From contig DAHUXR010000047.1 in NCBI GenBank assembly GCA_027307045.1, positions 1 to 33,731 on the forward strand: a stretch of DNA of 33,731 nt. The letters run 5' to 3'. A program made the translations under genes and the position numbers. Positions 12,907 through 29,374 of this stretch are shown here, one piece after another (the first letter of the stretch is position 1; each line of letters begins with the position of its first letter). The notes under the pieces were generated by a model that was not told the origin of the DNA, made no database searches, and worked only from the letters and a program-made list of their open reading frames with translations. Source of the stretch: Acidobacteriaceae bacterium. GTDB lineage: Bacteria > Acidobacteriota > Terriglobia > Terriglobales > Acidobacteriaceae.

Positions 12907-13719
12907 TTAAGCAGTTGCGCTCTTCAGTGGCGGACGTTTTGGGGTAGATCGCGCTGGCTCTTCACCATGGATCACAACAACGCTAGTATTTTCAGGGACA
13001 TCGCTTTGGCGAAGAAGCTGATGCCAATGCTTCTCTGGCCTTATGCGCTTTGTCTCATAAATGACGTAAATGAAGTGCTCCCAATCCCTTGAAGTGTATC
13101 CGCGCGTGTCTGCCAGCACTTCGTCGGCAACTCTCTTGGCATCTTCTTGGCTCCCGATGAATTTGTACTCGATTAACGTCTTTACTCCCGGCAACCCTGT
13201 GTCTGGCTCGAAATGTTTGATCTGTTTGCTTATCCGGGGTTTGCGCATGAGATCGGAGAAGACGCACCGCAGAACTGCCTCAATCCGCACATGGACTTCT
13301 TTTTCATCCTTGGGTGGGCGTGGAAAACAGAGTCTGTCAGTAATCGAATATTGAGTCTCGCGCAGAATCTGAATCGCGTCCTTTGTGACCGTGGTGGCCT
13401 TAGGCTCGCCAAACATGATCCGCAGCGCCCGGACATGCTGCCGCAGTCTGGGTACCCAGACCAGATATGGCTCGTCTGTTTCCTCGTCCAGTTCAGTTTT
13501 CGTGTAGTCCGTAGCGGCCTCCGATTCCAACTTCTGTACGGCTTTTAGAGCTTCTAGAAGGGATGCAGCTTCTAAGAAAAAGCGCAACCTCATAAACGCG
13601 ACGCGTATTGCGACATCAGCGTCGCCGCCACGCGAGTACTGGTTGTCAGCATAATCGAGCGCTTCCAAGATTGCGGTCAAAATGTCTTCTGCTGGATTTA
13701 AAGTGAGATTGTGGATCAT
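12907..13719 (-). CDS. PD-(D/E)XK nuclease-like protein (DpnII/MboI-type C-terminal domain)
   Basis: With the start at ATG 13719 (TGGAG 8 bases upstream) the protein has 270 residues; GTG 13743 would add 8. The N-terminal half (about 1-135) is helical with no recognised motif. The C-terminal half looks like a restriction-endonuclease fold: E147 in VRIEAVL, then P172-D173, E184-Y-K186 in LIEYKF (D-x10-E-x-K), and a DTRGYTSRDWEHFIYVIYET segment typical of DpnII/MboI-like domains. It is the second gene of a pair, 27 bases after the 94-residue protein. Base composition is lower in G+C than the flanks. No methyltransferase is nearby, so it is not an ordinary restriction system. Nuclease activity is inferred only. 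Confidence 0.65.
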   Translation of the reverse strand: MIHNLTLNPAEDILTAILEALDYADNQYSRGGDADVAIRVAFMRLRFFLEAASLLEALKAVQKLESEAATDYTKTELDEETDEPYLVWVPRLRQHVRALRIMFGEPKATTVTKDAIQILRETQYSITDRLCFPRPPKDEKEVHVRIEAVLRCVFSDLMRKPRISKQIKHFEPDTGLPGVKTLIEYKFIGSQEDAKRVADEVLADTRGYTSRDWEHFIYVIYETKRIRPEKHWHQLLRQSDVPENTSVVVIHGEEPARSTPKRPPLKSATA

Positions 13720-13746
13720 GCCGTCACTCCAATAACGCACCACTCA

Positions 13747-24050: not shown

Positions 24051-24463
24051 TTATGATTCCGGCTCCCACAGCCATGGGTATTCTTCCGGTTTGGAGACCA
24101 ACCCTTTTCTTACAGGATTTTGCCGGACGTATTCGATCTTCTGTTCCAGACTGTCCGCATGCCTCACTGCATGGTCAAACGATTCATCCTGCCAAACCGT
24201 TCCGGATCTTTTTAAAGCTTTATTGATGGAGTGAGCGGACGCGCCCTTAATAGGGCCGACGATTTCCTCAAAGCTGAAGGTCTCATGTTTTTCGTCTTCC
24301 AGCGGCATAAAGATCAGGTGCACGTGATCGGGCATCACAACAGCGATGTATAGCTGCATCTTCGTGCCATGATCGTGCAAGCAGTGTTTCAGCGCGAGAT
24401 CGCGCCGCCGGGTCTTTCTATGTGAGGCAGGTTGCGGCGGTAGTCATACTTACGGATTTTCAT
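24051..24463 (-). pseudogene. REP-associated tyrosine transposase (RAYT, IS200-like), internally deleted
   Basis: The C-terminal part is unmistakable: the HUH motif in AVVMPDHVHLIFMPL, then GASAHSINKALKRSGTVWQD, ESFDHAVRHADSLEQKIEYV and RQNPVRKGLVSKPEEYPWLW, ending at TAA 24053-24051. The N-terminal start survives separately: ATG 24463 gives MKIRKYDYRRNLPHIERPGG and then stops at TGA after AISR. The next recognisable text (ALKHCLHDHGTKMQLY) is in a different frame. About 30 residues expected between RPG and LKHC (the 'FVTFRT' strand) are missing. The gene is therefore inactive by deletion plus frameshift. REP hairpins in opposite orientation flank it. RAYTs are single-strand transposases thought to spread REP sequences. 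Confidence 0.8.
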
Positions 24464-24501: not shown

Positions 24502-24545
24502 CCACAAGATTCTAGCCGATGCCCAAAGTATCGTCTCCCCCCTCA

Positions 24546-24610
24546 CTTCCCACATTGCTCAACTCAATCGCCTCCATTCTCTTCAGGGCAATCCGGCCAA
24601 TTGTGCCGCG
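24546..24610 (-). pseudogene. Degenerate copy of the 3' end of the HEAR/nuclease-like gene
   Basis: On the - strand it reads RHNWPDCPEE, then after a frameshift EAIELSNV. This matches the HNWPDCPEWLEVIELSKVV end of the gene at 24756-26192. At DNA level, TTGCTCAACTCAATCGCCTC and GGGCAATCCGGCCAATTGTG here correspond to TTGCTCAACTCAATCACCTC and GGGCAATCTGGCCAGTTATG at 24793-24843. The copy lies 239 bases downstream of the intact end. Confidence 0.6.
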
Positions 24611-24755: not shown

Positions 24756-26192
24756 TTACCCGATCTCCCGTTCACCCAATCTCTTCACCACTTTGCTCAA
24801 CTCAATCACCTCCAGCCACTCCGGGCAATCTGGCCAGTTATGCTTCCAGCACACAATCGCATGGCACCCTCTGGGGTTGTGCCGATGCAATTTGAAATTC
24901 CTGCTGTAGATCTCCAGCTCAATAAACACCAGTTCCCACTTTCCCGGCGCGACCTCTCGCTTGGCCTCGCAATCCGGAAACGCCGCCTGCAACCGCTCCA
25001 CCCGGAACCCCAGGTCCGCCGCCACAATTCCAAACAGAAATAGCACGCCTAGCTCGTTTGTCGGCGCATGCGCCATCGCCGCCAGCCCCAGCGGCTCTCC
25101 ATACACCACCGCCCGCCCACACGGTGCTTGCCCGTCAGCAAGAGCCCCGTGTCTATCCGCCAGCTCATGCATTTCCTCTGTGTTGCTTTGCGCCCTCTGG
25201 GGTTCAAGGTTTTGATCTTCATCTCGCTCTACGTTTTGATTTTGATCTTGGTTTTGATCTTGCCAATTGCTATTTGCTAATTGCCGGTTGCTGCCTTCTA
25301 ATTGCCGATTGCTCCCCTCCGGCTGACTGCTGAGTGCTGACGGCTGAATGCTTCTTTGTGCTGATTGCTGAGCGCTTCTTTCCATCGCCATCAATATCTC
25401 AATCGCCAGTGCCGCCGCCACCACCTTCCCCAACTTCATCCCGCTGTGTTGCCGATCAGTGGCCATCAGTGGTAGACATTCTGGCTCTGGCATTTCTCCA
25501 GCACCCGTGCGCCTCTGTGCGCTCTGTGGTTCCCGATTTTCATTCGTGCCGCTTCGCGTTAATTCGCGGTCAACCTCTCCGATCTGCGTCTCTCTGCGCC
25601 AATCTGCGGCAAAGTTTTCCTTTGCGTCACCGGGGCCCCCGGCAAGCACGGGTTTGGCTTGATGGGGTGGCTCGGCGTCCTCTGCGGTGAATGGTTTTTG
25701 CCAATTGCTATTTGCTGATTGCCAATTGCTCTCCTCCGGCTGAGTGCCGAGTGCTGACCGCTGAATGCTTGTTTCCAGCAGCGGAAATTTGCTCACCACA
25801 GTCTTCACCACGTCCGCCCACTCGCGCTCCAGATGAAACTCCCTTACCAGCAGCACAAACTTGTGCGCCATCTGGCTCCAGACGATGCGCGCGTGCAACG
25901 TTCCTGCATGATGGATTCCATGTTCGGAATATTCCGCGCGACTGGGCAGCCGACCCAGCTTGCGCACCACGCGCGCCCAATCCAGCGTCAGCGCGTTCAC
26001 GTCCAGCGCGCCGCCTCGCGGCCCCGGCTCCAGTCCCGCCGCCCGGACTGCCTGCCGCATCCCGCGGAAATGTTTGTACACCTGATACCAGCTGATCTTC
26101 GACGCCCGCCGAAACTCCGCCTGGCTCGGCGCGCGGCCCAGTCTCTCCGCGCATTTCTTGATCGCCGCAATAATCTCGTCTCGTTTGTGCAT
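24756..26192 (-). CDS. HEAR-repeat protein with PD-(D/E)XK-like C-terminal domain and repeat-derived linker
   Basis: The start is ATG 26192: GGAGGA (26202-26197) lies 4 bases upstream, whereas the ATG at 26270 has no such site. The 478-residue product has three parts. Residues 2-53 (IIAAIKKCAERLGRAPSQAE, then RGMRQAVRAAGL) and about 66-117 match homing-endonuclease-associated repeats, presumed DNA-binding. Residues 141-233 and 271-340 are Gln/Ser/Asn-rich and are literal translations of dispersed intergenic repeats (SNWQSANSNWQ, EGSNRQLEGSNRQLANSNWQ, QDQNQDQNQN). Residues 362-478 form a compact domain with D407 in FPDC, E425-L-E427, SRNF, HAIVCWKHNWPDCP and LEVIELSKVV, resembling a PD-(D/E)XK-type nuclease fold lacking the usual lysine. 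Function is unknown; the nuclease call is inference. Confidence 0.65.
   Translation of the reverse strand: MHKRDEIIAAIKKCAERLGRAPSQAEFRRASKISWYQVYKHFRGMRQAVRAAGLEPGPRGGALDVNALTLDWARVVRKLGRLPSRAEYSEHGIHHAGTLHARIVWSQMAHKFVLLVREFHLEREWADVVKTVVSKFPLLETSIQRSALGTQPEESNWQSANSNWQKPFTAEDAEPPHQAKPVLAGGPGDAKENFAADWRRETQIGEVDRELTRSGTNENREPQSAQRRTGAGEMPEPECLPLMATDRQHSGMKLGKVVAAALAIEILMAMERSAQQSAQRSIQPSALSSQPEGSNRQLEGSNRQLANSNWQDQNQDQNQNVERDEDQNLEPQRAQSNTEEMHELADRHGALADGQAPCGRAVVYGEPLGLAAMAHAPTNELGVLFLFGIVAADLGFRVERLQAAFPDCEAKREVAPGKWELVFIELEIYSRNFKLHRHNPRGCHAIVCWKHNWPDCPEWLEVIELSKVVKRLGEREIG
25173..25382. repeat. Dispersed repeats inside the HEAR gene, block 2 (residues 271-340)
   Basis: Repeat words seen elsewhere between genes occur here within the open frame: GCTGACTGCTGAGTGCTGAC (about 25322-25341), CCAATTGCTATTTGCTAATT (about 25263-25282) and GTTTTGATCTTGGTTTTGAT iterations (about 25240). 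All keep the - strand frame open. Confidence 0.75.
25494..25772. repeat. Dispersed repeats inside the HEAR gene, block 1 (residues 141-233)
   Basis: The block contains CCAATTGCTATTTGCTGATT (about 25701-25720), CGTCCTCTGCGGTGAATGG (about 25676-25694), CTCTGCGCCAATCTGCGGCA (about 25592-25611), TTAATTCGCGG (about 25559) and GCGCTCTGTGGTTCCCGATT (about 25519-25538). The same words make up the intergenic elements at 9552, 10383, 11726, 20328 and 21699. Confidence 0.75.
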
Positions 26193-26233: not shown

Positions 26234-26789
26234 CGATTTCAAAGTTGTTTTGGTTCAGTGGCACCGGCACTCTTGCCGGTGAAAATTTAAGTACCGCCGT
26301 TTACTTGCATGATCGTGGAGCGCAGGCGGCTCGCCTGTGCGTTCAGTGTCCGTCCGAATTTTCTATGGGATCGAATCGATGAATGCAGCTCAAACACAAA
26401 AGCTAATTGCCAGCTGCTATTTGCTAACTGCTTTTTCGCACACCACGGCCACCGAACCAGGATGGCGGTCATCGCCAAGCGTGCCCATCCAACTGGCACA
26501 CTCCAAGATCCTCGGGGCCGCAGTAACTTGTGGGCGATACGATGGCCCACTGACCGCAGAGTTGCAGGCCTTTTTCCGCTTTTCACGGTCCTCCAATCTT
26601 TCGGAGGTTTCGCCGGCGCCGCTCCCGGCTAGCTTCGCCTACTATAGCGAAATCGGCACGAACAAGTCAACAGTTTTCTTCTTTAGAATCTATTATTTAA
26701 CGTCTGATAACGTGTTCAATCCGTCAAGCTGATTGCATTATTTCAAGCACCCTATCTGCCGGGTTCAAATACCCAATCGCCCCAAAACT
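26234..26789. other. Gene-free stretch upstream of the HEAR gene
   Basis: CGGCACTCTTGCCG at about 26267-26280 can form a short hairpin. CTAATTGCCAGCTGCTATTT and GCTAACTGC at about 26402-26431 belong to the AATTGCTATTTGC repeat family. Bases 26650-26720 are A+T-rich. No gene is supported on either strand. Confidence 0.45.
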
Positions 26790-27440
26790 CTACTGCGCCC
26801 GGATGGTCACGAAGACCCGGGTCTTCTCCCATTCCATGTTCAGGTCGGCGCTGTCGTTGGAATCCTGGTCCAGGGCGATGGTGAACTGCTCAACGGGCAC
26901 CACGATCTCCTGTTTCTTCATGTCCACGCGCGCCAGGTCCTGCTCCTGATGGTATTCGGTGCCCCACTGCCCGGTTTGCTTGTTGATGATGAGCTTCCAT
27001 GTGCCTTCTGAAGGGAGCGTGTACAGGGTGTAAGTGCCGGCCGGGACCTTGGCGCCGCCGATATCGAGCGCGGTGGCCGTGGTGAGCGTGGTGGCTTCAT
27101 TGGCGCCGGTACGCCAGACTTTTCCGTAGGGCGCAAGATCTGTCCCCAGTTTTCTGCCCTTAAGAGAAGGACGGCTGTAATCAATGGTGACTTTCTTGCC
27201 GTTGATGGTGCAGTCAGCGGTGCCGGGAGGGCTGGGACGCTTGCTCTTGTCTTGGGGCTGCTGCTGCGGCTGGGCGGAAGCGGCGGACGGCTGCTGAGCG
27301 GAAGTAGCGGGCGTCGACTGAGCGTTGGCGGAAGCAGTGAGCCCAGGTTGGGGAGCGGATGCAGCCATCGGCTGCGCCAGGGCGAACGCCGCGAAGATGA
27401 ATGCGCTGAGCGCTAGTGCGGAAAAATGTTTGATGGTCAT
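26790..27440 (-). CDS. DUF2911 domain secreted protein
   Basis: The 216-residue protein has a Sec signal peptide (hydrophobic residues 6-22, AFALAQ) and a Gln/Ala/Ser/Pro-rich linker (about 23-72). The DUF2911 domain follows: TADCTINGKKVTIDYSRPSL, KGRKLGTDLAPYGKVWRTGA, NEATTLTTATALDIGGAKVP, AGTYTLYTLPSEGTWKLIIN and a final EWEKTRVFVTIRAQ. DUF2911 proteins are common in Bacteroidetes and Acidobacteriota and have no known activity. AAAGGA about 9 bases before ATG 27440 supports the start. It is upstream of, and co-directional with, the HEAR gene but 600 bases away. Confidence 0.88.
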   Translation of the reverse strand: MTIKHFSALALSAFIFAAFALAQPMAASAPQPGLTASANAQSTPATSAQQPSAASAQPQQQPQDKSKRPSPPGTADCTINGKKVTIDYSRPSLKGRKLGTDLAPYGKVWRTGANEATTLTTATALDIGGAKVPAGTYTLYTLPSEGTWKLIINKQTGQWGTEYHQEQDLARVDMKKQEIVVPVEQFTIALDQDSNDSADLNMEWEKTRVFVTIRAQ

Positions 27441-27571: not shown

Positions 27572-28216
27572 TTACTTGCCCTTCAGCGCGGCGCAGGCGG
27601 CGTTGAAATCCGATTTGCCGCCTTCCTGCAGGGTAAGAGGCACCACCTCTTGTTTGTAAGGACGCATATGGTGATTCGTGACCAGCGCGCCGCCGGGATC
27701 AAAAGCGCGGTTGAGCGAGCCGCCGTCGTCAAGCACCAGGTCAGGGTTGTTCCACTTGCCCCGGAAATCAAGCGATGGCGCGGTGCTGCCGCTGAAGGTG
27801 GAGTAATTGGAGGCATAAATATGCGCCGTCTTACCCTGAAGATCGATGCCGTGAGGGTTTTGAAAGTCGCCGCCAAGCCTGAGGTTGAATTTTTCTCCGC
27901 GCGGGGTGCAAATCACGGCGTTGCCGGTAACATGCGTCAGTCCCATGTGCCTGCCGGTCTTGGGAGAAAAGGTCATCAACACGGCGTAGTCGCCGGCGAT
28001 ATTGGAATGCATCCGCCCCCAGCCCGACCACTGCGGGATGATGTGGAAATGGCCGCCCATATAAAAGCCCCACGGCGTAAAAACTGCCATGATGCCCATG
28101 AGCACCGCGACGCCAAACACAAGCGCGGCCAGGACCTGCACCACGCATCCGTGGCCGGCCTTGCGTGGCGCTGGCATTCCTGGCGGGAAAGACGAAGGAT
28201 TCAAACCGTGCTCCAT
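27572..28216 (-). CDS. Membrane-anchored protein, paralogue 2 of 2
   Basis: The 214-residue protein shares its whole layout with the product of 22918-23553: a membrane segment (about residues 24-46), then TPWGFYMGGHFHIIPQWSGW, GRMHSNIAGDYAVLMTF, CTPRGEKFNLRLGGDFQNP, FRGKWNNPDLVLDDGGSLNR, and LTLQEGGKSDFNAACAALKG. Conserved islands such as RGKWNNPDLVLDD are identical in both copies. The family is unrecognised. The start at ATG 28216 lacks a good ribosome-binding site; the ATG 13 codons later is an alternative. It is transcribed away from the Mo/W operon. The 131 bases between it and the DUF2911 gene show no terminator. Confidence 0.7.
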   Translation of the reverse strand: MEHGLNPSSFPPGMPAPRKAGHGCVVQVLAALVFGVAVLMGIMAVFTPWGFYMGGHFHIIPQWSGWGRMHSNIAGDYAVLMTFSPKTGRHMGLTHVTGNAVICTPRGEKFNLRLGGDFQNPHGIDLQGKTAHIYASNYSTFSGSTAPSLDFRGKWNNPDLVLDDGGSLNRAFDPGGALVTNHHMRPYKQEVVPLTLQEGGKSDFNAACAALKGK

Positions 28217-28284
28217 GGCGGCTGATTGAACGGCAGTAAGTGTACCGCAACGCGGGTACCGGATTTAGCAGCGGTTAGATGTGG

Positions 28285-28316
28285 TTGACAGTATTGATTT
28301 GAATCGTATTAAATCA
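28285..28316 (+). promoter_or_regulatory. Candidate promoter and operator of the Mo/W transport operon
   Basis: TTGACA (28285-28290, a consensus -35) is followed after 16 bases by TATTAA (28307-28312). A dyad TGATTT-N10-AAATCA (28295-28316) overlaps the spacer and -10 box. It could be the site of the HTH-TOBE regulator encoded downstream. It does not match the Escherichia coli ModE box. Confidence 0.55.
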
Positions 28317-28342
28317 TATATCCCCCCAGGAGCAACTGCAAA

Positions 28343-29374
28343 TTGCAATACTGCGCCACTTTGCCTGCAAGATCATCTGCCGCCCTGACGCGACGCCGGC
28401 TTCTTGCGCGCGCGTTGACGTTCGGCGCGGGCGCGGCGTTCGGCTTCCGGCCACTATCGGCGCTGGCGGATTCATTGTCCCCGCTCGATGTGGCCTACGC
28501 GGGATCCATGGGATCGCTGATGGAAGGCCCGTTGAAATCGTTAGCGGCGCAGGCCCTTAATCTCGACCTGCATGGCCGCGCTCAGGGTTCCAACGCGCTG
28601 GCCCAGTTGATCGTAGGCGGCAGCATTCGCCCGGACGTTTTTATCTCCGTGACACCCGCTCCCATGTTGACGGTGTTGCGCGCCGGCAAAGCTGAGATCG
28701 CACAGCCCATCGCGCGCACGGAGATGGTGATAGCGTACAGTCCGAAAAGCAAATTTGCGGAGAAGTTCGCAGTCGCCGCACGGATCGCGGGCAGTGAGAT
28801 ATTAGGTCCCGTGCCAGCCGGAATAAAAGAGGATCGCCGGCCTGGCCCTGCCGTTACGTGGTGGCAACTGCTGCAGGAACCCGGCTTACGCTTCGGCCGC
28901 ACCGATCCCGTTACCGATCCGCAGGGCCGCAACATTATTTTTACGCTGATGCTGGCTGAGAAACTTCTTAGGCGTCCCGGCATGGCGGCAAAGATTCTTG
29001 GGCCCACCATCAACCCGCAGCAGATCTTTACTGAGCCCACCGTCCAGGCGCGATTGCAAAGCGGTGAGCTCGATGCCGCATCGGCATACAAAACGCAGCC
29101 TGGCCCTTTCAATCTTCCTTACATCGCGCTGCAACCGGAAATCAACCTGAGCGGAGAGCGCGTCCATGCCGATCATCCTGAAATCAGCCTGACTGTGAAC
29201 GGCAAAACGTATCAGCCTGAGCCGCTGATCTTTTACGCCGCCGCGCTGAAAGATGCGCCCAGCAAAAAAGGCGCAGAGGCTTTCGTCGAATGGCTCACGG
29301 GCGCGGAAGCGCAGGCTATCTTCCGCCGCTATCACTATGGTCCTTCCGGAGCAGCCTCCGGACTACGCGCATGA
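28343..29374 (+). CDS. Molybdate/tungstate ABC transporter substrate-binding protein
   Basis: The 343-residue protein begins at TTG 28343 with AGGAG (28328-28332) upstream. It carries a twin-arginine-like signal, TRRRLLARALTFGAGAAFGF. The mature part has the ModA/WtpA layout: LDVAYAGSMGSLMEGPL with the anion-binding serine, RAQGSNALAQLIVGGSIRPD, VFISVTPAPM, then TEMVIAYSPKS, FGRTDPVTDPQGRNIIFTL and SGELDAASAYKTQPGPFNLP. The layout is closer to the archaeal/WtpA type than to classical ModA. It delivers the oxyanion to the permease. Its TGA overlaps the ATG of the permease gene (ATGA), indicating translational coupling. Molybdate versus tungstate cannot be decided by eye. Confidence 0.85.
   Translation: MQYCATLPARSSAALTRRRLLARALTFGAGAAFGFRPLSALADSLSPLDVAYAGSMGSLMEGPLKSLAAQALNLDLHGRAQGSNALAQLIVGGSIRPDVFISVTPAPMLTVLRAGKAEIAQPIARTEMVIAYSPKSKFAEKFAVAARIAGSEILGPVPAGIKEDRRPGPAVTWWQLLQEPGLRFGRTDPVTDPQGRNIIFTLMLAEKLLRRPGMAAKILGPTINPQQIFTEPTVQARLQSGELDAASAYKTQPGPFNLPYIALQPEINLSGERVHADHPEISLTVNGKTYQPEPLIFYAAALKDAPSKKGAEAFVEWLTGAEAQAIFRRYHYGPSGAASGLRA

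Follow-up and report, generated by a model that had tools for sequence, protein, structure and literature searches.

Dispersed intergenic repeats read in frame within the linker of a HEAR- and nuclease-like protein of a soil acidobacterium

Results

Organization of the locus

The window, i.e., the whole stretch of 33,731 nucleotides analyzed here, comes from the draft genome of a soil acidobacterium (G000, 4,985,350 bases). On its reverse strand lies a gene for a 478-residue protein with an N-terminal HEAR part, a long linker and a C-terminal nuclease-like domain, as presented in Table 1. The protein belongs to the family PF18780 (HNH_repeat / HEAR), which it matched in two stretches with 63.5 bits for a curated cut-off of 26, and the HEAR part is presumed to bind DNA. 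In a structural model computed from a 51-row alignment, we observed two confident domains (residues 1-147 and about 356-478), with a low-confidence region between them that contains a single helix (253-280). Mean pLDDT per 10 residues was 82-98 over the HEAR part (residues 1-140). Linker residues 151-252 and 283-351 were mostly below 50, a low value that is also expected where the alignment is shallow.

The hairpin preceding the gene belongs to a recurrent type (CCACC..GGTGG followed by a T run), which we found 12-74 nt before the start codon in 22 of 62 family copies compared to none of 334 control genes; it is possibly a leader terminator or attenuator carried along with the gene. A known RNA element was rejected, since the Rfam scan of the window gave no match at gathering score. 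Beside the gene, at 24051-24359, lies a partial remnant of an IS200-like (Y1_Tnp) transposase, whose profile match starts at position 42. The window also holds a protein with a DpnII-MboI-type restriction domain (12907-13743) and a Uma2 family protein (633-1193).

Table 1. Features of the window gene and its immediate surroundings (positions in the window).
Feature	Position	Strand	Basis
Window gene, 478 aa, HEAR-linker-nuclease-like (P0001)	24756..26192	-	Open frame; ATG 26192, stop 24756
HEAR part, N-terminal, residues 1-140, two HNH_repeat PF18780 stretches	25773..26192	-	Pfam E 2.3e-17
Linker, residues 141-361, largely repeat-derived, predicted disordered	25110..25772	-	Genome matches and model
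Repeat stretch, AATTGCTATTTGC and CTGAGTGCTGA types (SIQRSALGTQPEESNWQSANSNWQ)	25692..25769	-	Genome matches in query 583-660, some weak
Repeat stretch, TTAATTCGCGG / ATCTGCGGC and related types, residues ~175-218	25539..25670	-	Query 430-561, best E 1.7e-12
Second composite repeat stretch, with the first copied in frame at an offset of 417 nt	25234..25383	-	Query 125-274
Conserved island GMKLGKVVAAALAIEILMA within the linker, predicted helix (model 253-280)	25386..25442	-	Without repeat cover in six linkers
C-terminal domain, PD-(D/E)xK-like, residues 362-472	24777..25109	-	Alignment, model pLDDT 93, structural neighbours
Hairpin followed by a short T run, 16 nt 5' of the start codon	26212..26233	-	Same type before other family copies
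Decayed fragment, 82% like the C-terminal end of the window gene, just downstream of the stop	24543..24606	-	Similarity

The C-terminal domain

Residues E380, D407, E425, E427, H436 and H438 are invariant in the alignment. D407 and the E425-x-E427 pair are invariant in 55 rows, with Glu where the active site of a PD-(D/E)xK nuclease would usually have Lys; BamHI has Glu in place of Lys. The domain looks PD-(D/E)xK-like. Pfam gave no match for the C-terminal domain in the window protein or in three homologous C-terminal domains, the PDB sequence search with this domain returned only rows at E 0.57 and above, and Foldseek gave no match at E≤0.001 with either the full model or the domain. PHROG rows were few and of unassigned function (phrog_22655; E 0.0008 with the window protein, 2.5e-6 with one family member). 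Three family proteins matched no known defence or NCBI-named family, and such an assignment was rejected. The window protein is a putative nuclease and presumably expressed.

Repeat content of the linker

We compared the linker with the remainder of its own genome. As counted by hand from the matches of the best 40 of 114 genome candidates, 315 of its 663 bases match elsewhere at E≤1e-3 (query 125-274, 430-561 and 589-621) and 416 at E≤1, in pieces of 17-92 query bases; among the same best 40 of 114 candidates, at least 48 other places of the genome match at E≤1. In 394 kb of other DNA from this genome together with the rest of the window, the linker gave 14 matches of at least 34 bits. The controls gave a mean of 0.01 (maximum 1) for 100 first-order Markov resamples of the linker and a mean of 0.37 (maximum 4) for 100 random coding stretches of the same length, and the gene's own N and C parts gave 0 matches and 1 match. 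All 14 linker matches fell in DNA called intergenic by our in-house, unpublished hexamer gene finder, while 81% of the 394 kb was called coding. Where the context of a matching genome place was fetched, it was intergenic in 28 of 29 cases; the remaining place, near a contig end, is in coding sequence that appears to encode NrdJ, a class II ribonucleotide reductase.

The first analysis of this DNA, a sequence-only reading, had described residues 141-233 and 271-340 as translations of repeat words that otherwise occur between genes, in an open frame with intact domains on either side. Both points were borne out, the repeat nature of much of residues 141-340 being far above chance; the words it listed were right in kind, with diverged copies. 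Its estimate of about 490 repeat bases held as to origin and not as to extent, given the hand counts above. The motif AATTGCTATTTGC, with at most one mismatch, occurs at 42 places in the genome, compared to 5 for the reversed pattern. Because the repeat copies have diverged, exact 11-mers of the genome's own intergenic DNA covered no linker base. The linker repeats thus occur in intergenic DNA and, in frame, within a gene as well, as do bacterial RPE- or MITE-type repeats.

Part of the linker length comes from internal duplication, as an internal repeat is 83% identical over 77 nt at an offset of 417 nt, a multiple of 3. Between the two repeat stretches, at residues ~251-269, we also observed a conserved, helix-predicted island without repeat cover, on which the sequence-only reading had not remarked.

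Linkers of the gene family

The protein was found in at least 6 of 41 genomes, all six being among the nine of the window's genus; copies may be missing from this count, as the best 39 of 40, 65 and 45 candidates were scored for G000, G004 and G005, respectively. A first contig scan with the single window protein as query found no relative. Among 72 sequences (71 loci and the window), we retained 63 copies in which both domains were detected at 1e-4 and dropped nine one-domain sequences; the tree comprises 60 rows, three broken copies being left out. In the 63 two-domain copies, the linker ranges from 25 to 257 aa, and that of the window (231 aa) is the second longest.

The linkers were then compared with an independent intergenic set, an 800-kb sample of G005, and those matching at least three intergenic places were termed repeat-bearing. 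None of the 47 linkers shorter than 70 aa matched this set. Among the 16 linkers of 70 aa or more, six were repeat-bearing and ten had no match, so long linkers are not always made of repeats. By a similar test, with cut-offs of 36 and 38 bits for the contrast, 6 of 63 family linkers were repeat-bearing compared to 1 of 652 genes in the G005 sample; that gene reaches three places in its C-terminal tail, 17 others reach one, and reversed genes reach none. In the family, the three matches in N parts sit at the linker edge and the two in C parts near the gene end. The six repeat-bearing copies form one clade and are therefore not independent: they make up a single branch (support 98/89) inside the 16-row long-linker branch. 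Since they share one supported branch, the linker seems to have become permissive once, and the lineages seem to have taken different mixtures later.

The mixtures differ accordingly between copies. ATCTGCG is common to the linkers of the window, L078, L059, L079 and L124, and the AATTGC type to those of the window, L059 and L099. Among the linkers compared, GGACACnAAGG is limited to L059, L079 and L099, and CCCGAT to L124. Other repeat mixtures, partly of the same types, thus occupy the same point in L124, in L059/L079/L099 and in the G005 orthologue (L078), and the 47 short-linker copies lack them. These are the two kinds of homologues that the sequence-only reading had proposed to look for, and both were found; among the homologues compared, no distant one carried the same linker residues, the first of two observations that it had named as counter-evidence; the second, an outward spread of the repeats from this gene, was likewise not seen in the genomes compared. 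Outside the genus, as judged by name and sequence among the best 80 of 126 relatives, 43 of 58 named loci carry 130 or more residues N-terminal to the C domain, and 39 of these 43 have at most 220. For the four longer ones the excess lies, by eye, before the presumed HEAR part.

The flanks of 15 copies from the window's own genome contain 7.0 repeat matches per kb, compared to 1.15 in other intergenic DNA. Mobility was assessed for three copies. L067 and its flanking repeats are missing at the matching G005 site (L282), which spans about 275 bp including repeats compared to about 3 kb at L067, and for another of the three only the C domain was found in the G005 counterpart. Among the broken relatives, L094 is a G005 locus where the C domain alone was found.

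Selection on the domains and turnover of the linker

The G005 orthologue, L078, has N and C parts 96% and 99% identical to those of the window gene. Its linker is permuted, contains the helical module twice and is open through to 502 residues; as the two genes share ancestry, their linkers are not independent. Over both domains we obtained dN 0.016 and dS 0.388, i.e., a dN/dS of 0.042, the lowest of 15 orthologue pairs. Within the linker, the helical island gave pS 0.424 and pN 0.023, a 15-codon stretch near the linker end gave pS 0.5 and pN 0.054, and one repeat segment gave pS 0.105 and pN 0.113, its near-neutrality resting on 27 codons in the best case. From this pattern, the frame and the domains are held, and the repeat residues are not visibly held.

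These values bear on an alternative in which selection acts on the linker residues themselves, for instance for binding or condensation; the linker would then be an adaptive Gln/Ser/Asn-rich region and its likeness to repeats secondary. Its composition (Gln, Asn, Ser and Glu amount to 36% of the linker compared to 16% of the domains), the conserved island and the 15-codon stretch are consistent with such selection. However, pN about equals pS in the 27-codon repeat segment, order and content differ between orthologues with nearly identical domains, the DNA matching the linker is almost all intergenic beyond it, and 47 of the 63 copies have linkers under 70 aa. We therefore consider a linker selected for its residues to be unlikely, and favor repeat DNA captured in a frame that selection preserves.

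The upstream side of the locus is also shared, window 26381-26760 and the gene at 27572-28648 having matches beside L078. No match to the DUF2911 gene of the window (26790-27440) was found at the corresponding G005 place. Downstream of L078, only 45 bp match the window, and gene order is thus shared on the upstream side only.

The open frame and the orientation of the repeats

As the sequence-only reading had noticed, several repeat families are strung together without a stop: the linker contains 0 stops in the gene frame, compared to 7 and 12 in the other two sense frames (0, 11 and 12 in L078). We joined G005 repeat pieces (113 pieces) into random strings, which were open over 490 nt in 53 of 20,000 trials, and in 223 of 20,000 when each piece was set in its stop-poorer orientation. 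Such a linker is thus open by chance in about 0.3-1% of cases.

The open frame could also be a chance fusion in a decaying gene, i.e., a pseudogene or an assembly artefact, and decayed copies do exist in the family (an internal stop in L064, frameshifts in L083 and L095). Yet the gene is also present, with an open linker and beside the same upstream DNA, in a second, separately assembled genome, openness by chance is rare, and the dN/dS of 0.042 over both domains led us to reject decay; of the explanations weighed here, we regard this as the least probable.

The orientation of the repeats was highly consistent. Across 12 HEAR and NrdJ linkers, 39 of 39 motifs of five types were in one orientation, partly by inheritance and hence not fully independently, and two further motif types were in the opposite orientation in 7 of 7 cases in the HEAR and NrdJ linkers. 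The forward CTGAATG repeat is closed by stops in all frames, and its reverse is open in all three with the same seven-residue peptide cycle in each; a capture could then read as the same peptide, and only its total length would have to fit the frame. The TTGCTAA repeat has stops in both orientations, and the unit therefore needs variants to stay open. Of 8 direct duplications within linkers, 6 had an offset divisible by 3 and the other two, both in L124, did not, and the start of one of nine window/L078 alignments was out of register. Among the linkers compared, we saw no single repeat gained in one allele and absent in another.

A parallel in the ribonucleotide reductase NrdJ

The NrdJ match led to a comparison of this enzyme in the genus (loci L236/L283/L284 and L285-L290). 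In six other genus members, NrdJ has a variable linker at this place, followed by an intact C-terminal Cys motif. Of the six NrdJ linkers tested, three had matches at three or more intergenic G005 places and one more had a single match, while the part before the linker had no intergenic match in any of the six; the G004 locus L286, missed by motif and read later, is outside these counts. Three NrdJ linkers contain the peptide VAQPPSAV or VAQPASA, whose coding DNA resembles the repeat GTGGCACAGCCGCCCTCGGCTGTG. When up to 3 mismatches are allowed, this repeat has 4 occurrences in the intergenic DNA of the G005 sample and none in the 652 genes. In this genus, intergenic repeats could repeatedly have supplied the material of inter-domain tethers in unrelated genes, NrdJ among them, some heptads being pre-adapted by their open orientation, a generalization to which we give an even chance.

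Distribution of the repeats across genomes

In G001, G002 and G007, which belong to the same genus and in which no copy of the gene was detected, we counted 56, 81 and 88 AATTGCTATTTGC sites; conversely, G003 has 12 matched gene segments and 1 AATTGCTATTTGC site. The gene is therefore not needed for this repeat. For CGCGTTAATTCGCGG the case is less clear, with 3, 17 and 8 sites in G001, G002 and G007 compared to 6 to 42 in other genus members.

These counts address an outward spread, in which the repeats were born in this gene family and dispersed from it, for example by the nuclease itself. The position of nuclease copies in repeat-rich islands would agree with this, as would the CGCGTTAATTCGCGG counts of 3 and 8, near the low end of the genus, in two copy-less genomes, the third having 17. 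However, both the AATTGCTATTTGC-rich genomes without a detected copy and G003 argue against it, as do the short-linker copies without linker repeats. On the AATTGCTATTTGC data we rejected spreading by the nuclease, and we hold an origin inside the gene family to be very improbable, in favor of capture of pre-existing intergenic repeats.

In G008 and other genus members, several AATTGCTATTTGC and CGCGTTAATTCGCGG sites occur as inverted pairs roughly 50-100 bp apart, which suggests hairpin-forming elements. A small count in G005 intergenic DNA gave 2 such pairs for one motif and none for another.

Discussion

The window protein very probably combines a HEAR part, a flexible tether and a small PD-(D/E)xK-like nuclease, the tether of one clade having captured dispersed repeats while selection on the domains kept the frame. 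The sequence-only reading, in which repeats entered in frame-preserving steps and now form a disordered linker, is supported in this respect, as frame keeping and predicted disorder agree with it.

We propose the following scenario. A flexible tether would connect a DNA-binding HEAR part with a small PD-(D/E)xK-like domain, and the family would multiply in this acidobacterial genus within intergenic islands rich in repeats. One clade would have become free to vary its tether in both length and content. Its tethers would then have captured short dispersed repeats (often degenerate 7-bp units), each probably by insertion, and tether blocks would have been duplicated. The captured residues would be close to neutral. 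As strong purifying selection acts on the domain that follows the tether, the frame could not be lost and only frame-keeping versions would survive.

In this case, repeat DNA between genes can be traced into a protein. Conserved controls are available on either side of the linker and within it, and near-neutral residues, a selected frame and rapid turnover are found together. The origin of bacterial disordered linkers thereby becomes testable by orthologue comparison. The results also suggest that a simple rule of orientation and unit governs whether a repeat can enter genes. For annotators, repeat-like sequence in an open frame is no evidence against a gene.

The overall plan proposed for the window protein is that of modular homing endonucleases of the I-Bth0305I type, in which a DNA-binding region is connected through a loose tether to a restriction-enzyme-type nuclease domain (PMC3943268). 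Unlike these, the window protein has a C domain without Pfam match, and its linker is expanded in some copies only.

Intergenic repeats in frame inside bacterial genes, tolerated where the protein can bear them, are already known elsewhere (PMC10969869 and PMC2229807). In the literature covered, which was partial and included few subscription journals, we found no report of a multicopy gene in which such repeats turn over repeatedly within one tether, of in-frame repeat linkers in Acidobacteria or of the NrdJ parallel; within that coverage, the turnover in one multicopy-gene tether and the NrdJ parallel appear to be new.

Rickettsia palindromic elements (RPE) and other intragenic MITE fusions are likewise intergenic repeats in frame within genes. 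RPE are discrete palindromic elements of about 105-150 bp, unlike the window linker, where a single tether contains a reshuffled string of several short, degenerate families, often based on heptads. A closer likeness in unit size is offered by the TAACTGA heptamer direct repeats of Beggiatoaceae and Cyanobacteria, 7-bp units that are mostly intergenic (PMC4679880). As MacGregor describes there, stops close every frame in one orientation and none in the other, and the repeat is present in some open reading frames. CTGAATG obeys this orientation rule as so described, and TTGCTAA does not. In contrast to TAACTGA, the units of the window linker are other, more degenerate and mixed with other repeats, and they fill a linker between two conserved domains with orthologues for comparison.
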